In this document: piece after piece, positions 1 to 25,773 of the stretch
Position numbering within the stretch: position 1 is the stretch's first letter
How the letters are laid out: each line of letters begins with the position of its first letter
Assembly (NCBI GenBank): GCA_016792565.1
Contig: JAEUMK010000034.1
Span: forward strand, 1-41,111
Direction: 5' to 3'
DNA from: Alphaproteobacteria bacterium
GTDB lineage: Bacteria > Pseudomonadota > Alphaproteobacteria > Micropepsales > Micropepsaceae
DNA: 41,111 bases
Notes under the pieces: generated by a model
What the model saw: only the letters and a program-made list of their open reading frames with translations
Databases searched by the model: none
What the model was told of the DNA's origin: nothing
Position numbers and translations under genes: made by a program

Positions 1-509
1 GCCGGGTCGCGGAAGGCGGCGATGTCGGCATCCGCGAAGGGGAAGCGGAAGAAATGTACCGACGAGGTCTTGCCGTCCGGGGTGGTGCGGTCGGCGTCGT
101 CGGTCGCTTCGCCCTGGATGCGCCAGGCGCCGCCGGGACCCTGGATCTCGATGAAGACATGCGATTCGACGCCGCCGAGGCGCCGCAGCACCTTGTCGCG
201 GCGGCCGGGCTCGTCGATCTCCAGCATCATCGTGGCGACCAGCTCGCGGCCCTGGGGAATGAGCGGGTTGTAGGCCTCCAGCTCGCCCGCCACCTGCTCG
301 GCGCCGCCCTTTTCAATGCACAGCATCTCGTGCACCTGCAGCCACATCGTCTCATAGTTCTCGAAATAGAAGGTCGCGAAGGGGCCGACCTCGATCCGGC
401 GCAGCTTCTTGACGGGCAGCAGCGCGGCGCGGCGCGCCTTGCGCTGCGCCTGATAGGCCTCCATCGGGAGAATGTCGGCCGCGTCGAGGCGGCGGGCGGC
501 TTCAGGCAT
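1..509 (-). CDS. DUF3501 family protein (partial, C-terminus beyond left edge)
   Basis: A reading frame runs leftwards from an ATG at 509 to the window edge without a stop, giving about 169 residues (begins [20 protein letters not shown]). The composition, the early basic stretch ([17 protein letters not shown]) and the position directly after an Fe-S oxidoreductase and a rubrerythrin match the DUF3501 family, whose biochemical role is unknown. Its start codon overlaps the TGA of the upstream Fe-S gene (TGATG), so the two are probably translationally coupled. No membrane segment or signal peptide is visible. The family call rests on recall of the sequence pattern and context; function is not inferred beyond membership of this three-gene unit. 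Confidence 0.8.
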
Positions 510-1870
510 CACAGCAACCCATAGCTTTGAGCAAGGAGTTCGATCGGGTGTTCGGCGAGCTTGACGTTCGCCGTCTCGCCCTTGCCGGCGGCCAGCGCCA
601 TGGTTCCCGCGACGAGGTGCTGCGCGGCGAGCGGACATTCGCTGACGAGGTGCGCGTTGTTCGCCTTCAGCGCGGCGCGGAAGGCGGGCGTGCCGACCTT
701 CACCGCGCAGACCCTGGTTTCCTTCAGCACGCCGAACGTGCCGCCATGCCCGGCGCAGCGCTCGATCACGTCGACCTTCTGCCCCGGTATGAGCCGCAGC
801 ATCTCGGCGGCCTTGGGGCCGACGTTCTGGGCCCGCGCATGGCAGGCGAGATGGACGCTGACGCCGCCCTCGATGGGCTTCAGCCCCTCGGGCAGCCCGT
901 GCTTGCGGGCGACGTCGACGACGTATTCGTCGATGTCGAAGGTCGCCTGGGCCAGCGCCTTGACGTTCTCGTCGCCGGGAACGATCAGCGGCCACTCGAA
1001 CTTGAACATGAGGCCGCACGAGGCGATGGGCGTAATGATGTCGTAGCCGGCGTCGATGAGCGGGCGCAGCTTCGCCGACACCGTCCTCGCCTGTTCGGCG
1101 ACCCTGGCGAGGTCGGCCTGTTCGAGAAACGGCATGCCGCAGCAGCCCGGATATTCGACCAGCGTCTCGACGCCGATCTTGTTGAGCACCTTCAGCGCCG
1201 CCTCGCCGATCGGCGGCTTGTTGTAGTTGACGAAGCAGGTGGCGAAGATCGCCGCCTTGCGCTGGCCGAAGGCCGGGGCCGCGGCGTTGACGCCGCCCTT
1301 CATCGTCTTGGCGCGCTTCACGAAGGTCCGGCGATTGAACTCCGGCAGCTCGGCGTCGCGGTCGATGCCGAGGGTGCGCTCCATCGCCGCGCGTGCGGGA
1401 CGGTTCGATTTCTTCGAGGCCCAGTTGGCGAGCGGCGCCACCGCGCCCGCCAGGCGTCCGTTGCGGTCCATGCGCGCCAGCTGGCGCGCCGTCCAGTTCG
1501 ACTTGCCGGCCTTCACCTCGGCCATCCGGGCGCGCAGCATCAGATGCGGGAAGTCGATGTTCCACTCGTGCGGCGGCACATAGGGGCACTTCGTCATGAA
1601 GCACATGTCGCAGAGCGTGCAGGCCTCGATCACCGGCGCGAACGCCTCGGACTTCACCTCGTCGAGCTCGCCGGTCGGCGAGGCGTCGATCAGGTCGAAG
1701 AGGCGCGGGAAGCTCTCGCACAGATTGAAGCAGCGCCGACAGGTGTGACAGAGATCGAACACCCGCCGCAGCTCCTCGTCGAGCTTGGCGGGATCGAGAA
1801 AATCGGCGTCCTGCCACGCGATTTCGTGACGGACGGGCGCGCTGAGGCTGCCTTCGCGCATGTGGGACAT
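509..1870 (-). CDS. Heterodisulfide-reductase-like Fe-S oxidoreductase (GlpC/HdrD type)
   Basis: A 453-residue protein. The N-terminal ferredoxin-like part has two cysteine clusters: C41-x2-C44-x2-C47-x3-C51 and C84-x2-C87-x2-C90-x4-C95. These should bind two 4Fe-4S clusters. Two CCG-type domains follow, with a canonical GCCGMP at about 242-247 and a second, degenerate copy (HLACHA at about 340, then CAGHGG at 372). Proteins of this build move electrons between flavoproteins or quinones and thiol/disulfide or redox partners; the partner here is unknown. The frame is open 78 bases further upstream, but I chose the ATG at 1870 because AGAAAGG lies just before it and the upstream residues are low-complexity Arg/Pro. 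It lies between rubrerythrin and DUF3501, so it may supply electrons to rubrerythrin, which lacks a rubredoxin domain; that is inference. Confidence 0.85.
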
Positions 1871-2503: not shown

Positions 2504-2531
2504 ATCGTAGAACGCAGACGGGCATCGTCAA
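2504..2531 (-). promoter_or_regulatory. Candidate sigma70-type promoter of rubrerythrin
   Basis: On the minus strand TTGACG (2531-2526) and TACGAT (2509-2504) are separated by 16 bases, about 60 bases before the rubrerythrin ATG. The match to -35 is good and to -10 moderate. It sits immediately downstream of the inverted repeat at 2536-2562. Confidence 0.45.
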
Positions 2532-2535
2532 GGTG

Positions 2536-2562
2536 TTAGATCAAAGCCTGGAATTGATCTAA
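2536..2562. promoter_or_regulatory. Perfect 9-bp inverted repeat, candidate operator
   Basis: TTAGATCAA at 2536-2544 and its exact reverse complement TTGATCTAA at 2554-2562 are separated by 9 bases. The AT-rich arms stand out in a GC-rich genome. The element ends 4 bases upstream of the -35 hexamer proposed for rubrerythrin and 22 bases after the irr stop. It is poorly suited as a terminator (weak AT stem, no T-tract). It does not match an FNR/FixK box (half-sites are in the opposite order) or a standard Irr box, although TTAGA recalls an Irr half-site. The binding protein is unknown. Confidence 0.55.
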
Positions 2563-2584
2563 TAATGCGTCGCAAACCCAGGGG

Positions 2585-3016
2585 TCAGGCTTCGCGCAGC
2601 CGGACGACGATCTCGACCGATGCGATGGCCAGCCCCTCGGGGGCCGACGGGAAGGCGGCGATCTCGACGGCGCCCGCGGGGATATCGAGCGGCCGTCCCG
2701 ACGGATCGACGAAGTGATGGTGCGGCGCGGTATGCGTGTCGAACCAGGTCCGCGTGCCGTCCACGGCCACTTCGCGCAACAGGCCGGCGCCGGCGAAGGC
2801 ATGAAGCGCGTTGTAGATCGTGGCCAGCGACAGCGTCGCGCCCTGCGCCGCGGCTTCCTCGGCGAGCAGCTCCGCCGTCAGGTGGCGGTCGCGGCCGTCG
2901 AACAGCAGGCGGGCCAGTTGGAGACGCTGGCGCGTCGCCCTGAGGCCCGCGCCTTCCAGAAGGCGCTGGGCCGCCTCGAAGGGCCGGCTGCCGGGACGAT
3001 CATGTGACGCGCTCAT
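2585..3016 (-). CDS. irr: Irr, Fur-family iron response regulator
   Basis: A 143-residue Fur-superfamily protein. The N-terminal winged helix contains GLRATRQRLQLARLLF and the recognition segment SLATIYNALHAFAGAGLL, followed by the VAVDGTRTWFDTHTAPHHHF block. The HHH triplet is the haem/metal-binding signature of Irr, which in Rhizobiales controls haem synthesis, iron uptake and storage genes according to haem status. There is no cysteine in the protein, so the Cys-Pro haem regulatory motif of Bradyrhizobium Irr is absent; this is common in other Irr proteins. The frame is open well upstream, but the ATG at 3016 (MSASHDRPGS) gives the normal family length. It is divergent from fabA, an arrangement conserved in many Rhizobiales. 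The spacing upstream (TTGAAA...TAGCAT, 15 bases apart) is only a weak promoter candidate. Confidence 0.92.
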   Translation of the reverse strand: MSASHDRPGSRPFEAAQRLLEGAGLRATRQRLQLARLLFDGRDRHLTAELLAEEAAAQGATLSLATIYNALHAFAGAGLLREVAVDGTRTWFDTHTAPHHHFVDPSGRPLDIPAGAVEIAAFPSAPEGLAIASVEIVVRLREA

Positions 3017-6468: not shown

Positions 6469-6828
6469 TCAGGGCTTGCTGAGGGTGCGCGTTTCGTAGT
6501 TGGCGTTCAGCACGTCGAAGGCGGCGCTTTCGAGCATCTTGTCGGGGTTGGCGGCGCAGTCCGCCTGGACGGCCGTGTAATAGGCATCGATGCCGCCCTC
6601 GCCCATGAGATCCCAGGTATCGGCGGTCTGCCGGTTGGTCGCCGTCGAATAGCCCATCAGCCAGGCGGCGATCTGCGGCGCGGCCTGCGGATCGGAGGCG
6701 ATGTCGGCGGTGATCTGGCTGCAGGCGATGGCCCCCGCGCCGGTGATCCGGTATTCGCCGTCGGCCGAGGCGGCGGCGGCGGTGGAGGTGAGCAGGGCGG
6801 CGGCGGCGATCAGGACGGAGAGGCGCAT
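6469..6828 (-). CDS. Small exported protein with two cysteines, function unknown
   Basis: A 119-residue protein with a clear Sec signal peptide (MRLSVLIAAAALLTSTAAAASA, cleavage probably after residue 22). The mature part has Cys36 and Cys91, which could form one disulfide in the periplasm. The pattern of a first Cys, then AAWLMGYSTATN, then a second Cys followed by NPDKMLESAAFDVL recalls small HdeA-like or Rap1a/Tai-like periplasmic proteins, but the resemblance is too weak to assign. AAGGGAAA precedes the ATG. It is transcribed alone, convergent with the fab operon. Confidence 0.75.
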   Translation of the reverse strand: MRLSVLIAAAALLTSTAAAASADGEYRITGAGAIACSQITADIASDPQAAPQIAAWLMGYSTATNRQTADTWDLMGEGGIDAYYTAVQADCAANPDKMLESAAFDVLNANYETRTLSKP

Positions 6829-25354: not shown

Positions 25355-25773
25355 GATTTCGGCTTGGCGTCGATGGGCGTGCCGTAGAGCTCAAGCCGGT
25401 GGTCGGCCAGCTTGTAGCCGAGACGCTCGGCGACCAGCCGCTGCAGCCGCTCGATTTCTTCGTCGCGGAACTCGATGACCTTGCCGGTGGTCAGGTCGAT
25501 CAGATGGTCGTGGTGTTCTTCCGGCGCCTCCTCGTAGCGCGAACGGCCGTCGCGGAAGTCGTGGCGCTCCAAAATTCCAGCCTCCTCGAACAGGCGAACC
25601 GTACGGTAGACGGTGGCGATCGAGATACGGCTGTCGATCGCCGCCGCCCGGCGGTGCAGCTCCTCGGCGTCGGGATGGTCCTGGGCCTCCGACAGCACGC
25701 GAGCGATCACGCGACGCTGCTCGGTCATCCTGAGGCCCTTGTCGATGCAGAGCTTCTCGATTCGGTGAGGCAT
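25351..25773 (-). CDS. Fur/Mur-type metal-responsive regulator
   Basis: A 140-residue Fur-family repressor. The winged helix contains LRMTEQRRVIARVLSEAQDH and ISIATVYRTVRLFEEAGIL; the metal-binding part has EEHHDHLIDLTTGKVIEF. The C-terminal CxxC pairs of E. coli Fur are absent, as in alphaproteobacterial Fur/Mur, where the protein often senses manganese; which metal it uses cannot be read here. Two ATGs are in frame 6 bases apart; the second (25773) is chosen because GGAAGGA sits at correct spacing from it and abuts the first. It is in an operon with rimI upstream and a coupled acyltransferase downstream. Confidence 0.93.
   Translation of the reverse strand: MPHRIEKLCIDKGLRMTEQRRVIARVLSEAQDHPDAEELHRRAAAIDSRISIATVYRTVRLFEEAGILERHDFRDGRSRYEEAPEEHHDHLIDLTTGKVIEFRDEEIERLQRLVAERLGYKLADHRLELYGTPIDAKPKS

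Follow-up and report, generated by a model that had tools for sequence, protein, structure and literature searches.

INTRODUCTION

Irr is a dimeric regulator of the Fur family. Its apo form binds DNA, and whether it represses or activates a gene depends on the position of its box, the ICE (PMC7762939). In Rhodobacter sphaeroides, Irr binds boxes at ccpA and at the rubrerythrin-related gene mbfA in vitro, and it represses mbfA, which is upregulated about eightfold in an irr mutant under iron limitation (PMC3413700). In most orthologous irr-rbr promoters of other Alphaproteobacteria, we found a textbook Irr box, TTTAGAAnnnTTCTAAA, with TTGAC 3 to 5 nt downstream.

Here, we describe the irr-rbr locus in a 41,111-nucleotide stretch of DNA (the window). 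Like known alphaproteobacterial ICEs, it has a palindrome of TTAGA-type halves near or abutting the promoter of an iron or peroxide gene, with irr adjacent. It shares genes, gene order, strand, and promoter type with a canonical locus such as L020 (TTTAGAATAGTTCTAAA-3-TTGACA), whose ICE is intact and lies 10 to 12 nt closer to the -35 element. Unlike a standard ICE, the candidate box in the window fits just 9/14 consensus positions, lies 15 nt from the -35 element, and is accompanied by an extra half-site at the ancestral position. Our analysis indicates that positions 2547 to 2563 are very probably a degenerate Irr operator, displaced by about one helical turn and associated with a leftover or accessory half-site, that would control rbr and the Fe-S protein gene behind it.

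RESULTS

Genes around the repeat

The irr gene lies upstream of rbr, and both are on the minus strand (Table 1), an order found in most of the alphaproteobacterial orthologues that we fetched. The product of irr matched the IrrA profile at 163 bits against a cut-off of 150. In the alignment, its recognition helix (SLATIYN) is near standard and the HHH motif is kept; together with the Irr proteins of its genus, it forms a long, well-supported branch. Two other Fur-family genes were found in the genome: fur at 25384-25740 and one more on contig C44.

The rbr product has no C-terminal rubredoxin domain, as the NCBIfam profile is covered over 1-143 of 194 only. The GlpC-like Fe-S gene is the same-strand neighbor behind rbr in 78/80 loci (median identity, 58%), usually at a distance of 50 to 250 nt in related loci, and in the window it is probably on the same transcript as rbr. 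The Fe-S protein may supply electrons to the rubredoxin-less rubrerythrin or share its task. Elsewhere in the window, near pnp, a small secreted-looking protein (6469-6828) weakly matches the HdeA/HdeB acid chaperone family.

Table 1. Features of the irr-rbr region, in window coordinates
Feature	Position	Strand	Basis
Fe-S protein gene, CCG domain, GlpC-like	509..1864	-	PF02754; downstream of rbr
rbr, rubrerythrin, 139 aa	2024..2443	-	Pfam PF02915, 111 bits; NCBIfam rubrerythrin profile
rbr promoter, TTGACG-16-TACGAT	2504..2531	-	sigma-70-type site search
9-9-9 inverted repeat, TTAGATCAA-AGCCTGGAA-TTGATCTAA	2536-2562	.	sequence
Promoter-proximal arm, half-site, TTGATCTAA	2536..2544	-	sequence; genus comparison
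Candidate degenerate Irr box (ICE), ATTAGATCAATTCCAGG	2547..2563	-	72-site matrix; register in relatives
Possible Fur-like box, weak, overlapping the Irr box, TTGCGACGCATTATTAG	2559..2575	-	small Fur-like matrix, 10.1 bits
irr, Fur-family iron response regulator, HHH motif	2585..3016	-	NCBIfam NF045678 IrrA; alignment

An AT-rich inverted repeat in the irr-rbr intergenic region

A preliminary description of this DNA had pointed to a perfect 9-9-9 inverted repeat just upstream of the rubrerythrin promoter, ending 4 bases before a likely -35 element. All of this was borne out. The repeat is exact and lies between irr and rbr; TTGACG follows at the distance claimed, and TTGACG-16-TACGAT, which we call a good promoter, is the only sigma-70-type site detected in the region. 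The AT-rich arms had also been thought unlikely by chance, and our counts agree. Perfect 9-bp arms on their own are not unusual in the GC-rich window, which has 17 maximal cases. Those with no more than three G/C, however, are confined to 2536-2562, and they averaged 0.0 per window in 30 simulated first-order Markov windows. When the 142-nt irr-rbr intergenic region was shuffled, any perfect 9-bp-arm repeat appeared in 152/20,000 sequences (<1%).

The rarity of the arms is what one would expect if an unrecognised dimeric regulator read TTAGATCAA-N9-TTGATCTAA, an option raised in the preliminary description, as was the remark that the half-sites run in the reverse order of FNR/FixK. An FNR/FixK box reads TTGAT-N4-ATCAA. 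The arms are indeed ordered ATCAA...TTGAT and do not fit it, and no TTGAT-N4-ATCAA occurs in 2536-2575. The RirA iron-rhodo box, TGA-N9-TCA, was rejected as well, since against this consensus the 27-mer has TCA-N11-TGA only. However, the 27-bp repeat occurs once in the 3.07-Mb genome, where we found no second copy with up to three mismatches. Among 96 genomes of the family, 3-mismatch matches occurred in 4, and reversed-pattern controls likewise gave 4. Moreover, it is the ICE register described below, not the 9-9-9 register, that is conserved before orthologous rbr genes. We therefore consider an unrecognised regulator very unlikely. Most probably, the repeat is a known switch in an unusual local form, a worn and slightly displaced Irr site.

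The repeat overlaps a degenerate match to the Irr box

We built a symmetric weight matrix from 72 ICEs in orthologous irr-rbr promoters, each with at least 12/14 consensus matches, a cut that leaves out the window and its close relatives. TTGAC lies 3 to 5 nt downstream of the box in 67/72 of these promoters, and in the remaining 5/72 our script found none within 40 nt. The best match in the whole window was at 2547-2563, with 12.7 bits; the next best scored 0.16. Two positions reached 12.7 bits when 4 Mb of sequence with the window's composition was simulated by a first-order Markov model, or about 0.02 expected per window. The score lies below the training range of 22 to 38 bits. The core of the match is TTAGATC-n-ATTCCAG, and on the minus strand the order is ATTAGATCAATTCCAGG-CTTTGATCTAACACC-TTGACG. 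The match to the TTTAGAAnnnTTCTAAA profile stands well above background, an Irr box is conserved at most orthologous irr-linked promoters, and irr is encoded in the genome.

Related genera share the register of the box

We then compared the position of the best match across relatives. We sampled six genomes from the window's genus and two related genera (L002, L003, L004, L005, L007, and L013), none of them in the matrix. In 6/6, the best match among about 180 positions per promoter is separated from the -35 element by exactly 15 nt. The sister SO-S41 (L003/L041) has a less worn box in the same register, CTTAGAGTAATTCCAAG-TATTCACCTAACCGC-TTGACC, at 20.1 bits, and G001, also of the window's genus, has TTTGAAGCCGATTCAAA-TTTGCCCCTAAGTGC-TTGACG at 0.4 bits. 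In the other two genera, the sites are CTTGAAATGATTCCAGA (G006, g3; 11.6 bits), ATTCGAACAAATACAAA (G012, g4; 8.8 bits), and CTTGGAATCGCTACAGT (G007, g4; 1.7 bits). The scores of the G001 and G007 sites mean little alone, and their assignment as boxes would rest mainly on the shared position. Two further genus members, G002 and G004, are uninformative, as their assemblies have no irr or rbr and the contigs end nearby.

Relative to the common 3- to 5-nt spacing, the box is displaced by 10 to 12 nt, about one helical turn. In families outside the window's own (e.g., L011, L019, L024, L029, and L202), the box lies 3 to 5 nt from the -35 element, and the 15-nt spacing therefore looks derived. We considered a single origin of the shift and set it aside: the PNPase tree fixed neither how the three genera branch nor whether they form one clade, and no PNPase was matched in g3. 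We also rejected a change in the Irr recognition helix (YNTL to YNAL or YNSL) as a partner of the shifted box, because it occurs in 6/6 shifted loci but also in about 17/84 canonical ones. This 6/6 comes from reading the alignment; the script's class count gave four shifted rows, with the window duplicate merged and L004 misassigned via a loose -35 pattern. Other palindromes were seen in the rbr promoters of these relatives: a perfect 10-bp inverted repeat, AACCGCTTGACCTCAAGCGGTT, over the -35 element in SO-S41 and CTAATATCATTATTAG between -35 and -10 in G007 (L005).

The search upstream of orthologous rubrerythrin genes that the preliminary description had proposed thus gave a divided answer. 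The exact 9-9-9 repeat is not conserved there, the outcome that the description had named as its refutation, and an Irr box is present in most irr-linked orthologues. The suggestion of an unrecognised regulator found no support, and that of an unusual Irr site is strongly supported by the matrix score, the register, and the Irr box in orthologous promoters.

The promoter-proximal arm as a putative separate half-site

The 9-9-9 register is misleading: the predicted box consists of the promoter-distal arm plus the "spacer", which leaves the promoter-proximal arm as a putative half-site of its own. The CTAA of TTGATCTAA lies 4 nt before the -35 element, where a canonical ICE has its right half. 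CTAA-N4-TTGAC is found in 3/3 genus members, and canonical promoters have CTAA(A) at the same register. This half-site is probably either left over from the ancestral box or accessory. In the window, by coincidence or by later change, it perfectly mirrors the left half of the box, hence the striking 9-9-9 appearance.

It is also possible, although doubtful, that the whole 27-bp repeat functions in this species as an expanded Irr operator, bound by two Irr dimers or by one that reads half-sites one extra turn apart. The outer arms pair at 9/9 positions in the window and 6/9 in SO-S41, the proximal CTAA is kept throughout the genus at the canonical right-half register, and, given TTAGA/TCTAA, the chance of four further pairs is about 0.006. 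However, 4/9 positions pair in the remaining genus member and 3, 4, and 2 of 9 beyond the genus, close to the 2.4 of 9 that other promoters average in this register. Complete symmetry was seen in the window alone among the compared promoters, and the ICE matrix gives the proximal 17-mer -15.7 bits. The perfect outer arms also count against the Irr reading itself, since a different dimer could conceivably read them. A broader scenario, which we regard as rather improbable, is that in this genus the operator read by Irr has widened to 27 bp, with two dimers or a stretched one, after a stepwise one-turn shift in the common ancestor of the three genera, perhaps accompanied by a change from repression to activation.

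A hairpin or a chance palindrome without regulatory role is very improbable. The strand folds at -8.1 kcal/mol (z, -2.6), and the extra pairing could be luck if TTAGA/TCTAA were kept for other reasons. However, its position upstream of the promoter keeps the repeat out of the rbr mRNA, neither a terminator nor an Rfam family was found there, and this reading leaves the matrix score and the register unexplained.

A possible Fur-like site overlapping the box

We asked whether the window's own Fur (25384-25740) could instead be the protein that reads the site, either as a Fur site or as a composite operator of Fur and Irr. Directly upstream of the box, TGCGA-N2-CATT is common to the three genus members. 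Some relatives have clear Fur-like boxes (ATGCGAGTCATTCTCAT in L020 and CTGCGAGACATTCGCGA in L004), and Sphingomonad rbr promoters have TTGCGAATTATTCGCAA in place of the ICE. However, a search for a Fur box (TTGCGAATnATTCGCAA or a TGAGAATnATTCTCA-like palindrome) returned only a partial site overlapping the Irr box, whose score is below that of every training site and ranks sixth in the window, and the repeat itself, at 3.9, is not Fur-like. A role for Fur therefore seems unlikely. In the Sphingomonad-type loci L068, L113, L118, and L119, which have no adjacent irr, TTGCGAATTATTCGCAA-like boxes occupy the place of the ICE, an apparent exchange of regulators.

DISCUSSION

The sequence, conservation, and register of the box are observed, and from them we infer binding by Irr, the number of dimers, the sign of control, and its signal. 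In the working that we propose, Irr made from the neighboring irr gene would bind the 17-bp ATTAGATCAATTCCAGG and thereby set the activity of the promoter at 2531-2504, from which rbr and the Fe-S gene would be transcribed. The box would act from about one helical turn further upstream than in most relatives, where it abuts the -35 element, so that the same DNA face would be offered to RNA polymerase. Within the genus, the CTAA half-site would have stayed where the right half of the old box was. When iron or haem is scarce, apo-Irr would hold rbr down; haem binding or peroxide would remove Irr, and rubrerythrin would be made for peroxide defence.

Assuming that transcription starts 7 nt behind the -10 element, the box centre in the window lies near -58. 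Direct repression from so far upstream is less usual than from a box at the -35 element, and activation is therefore conceivable. If Irr is the regulator, we lean toward repression of rbr in low iron, with activation by Irr bound at the displaced box as the chief, though less expected, alternative. In R. sphaeroides, the mbfA transcript starts inside the box (PMC3413700), whereas the predicted box in the window lies upstream of the -35 element.

These results probably remove a supposed unknown regulator and would make the locus a clear natural example of how an operator drifts, in which the gene pair and the regulator are the same, the box has moved by about one helical turn, and a relic half has stayed. 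They suggest that Irr controls a widespread unit of rbr and Fe-S protein and, in this genome, katG as well.

The genome has one intact ICE, TTAGAATAATTCTAA, 32 nt before katG, which encodes a catalase-peroxidase (L033 1501-1515; G000:C7:5563-5577), and it overlaps the likely katG -10 element. Recognition of the canonical ICE has thus presumably been kept. As with mbfA and ccpA of R. sphaeroides, where Irr boxes lie on two peroxide-defence genes (PMC3413700), predicted ICEs are found here at rbr and katG, and Irr may therefore serve mainly peroxide defence in this organism. A box over the -10 element is in a repressor position, and Irr may control catalase-peroxidase in this genome. In another genome, two irr genes were found in tandem (G082:C162:24416-25293).
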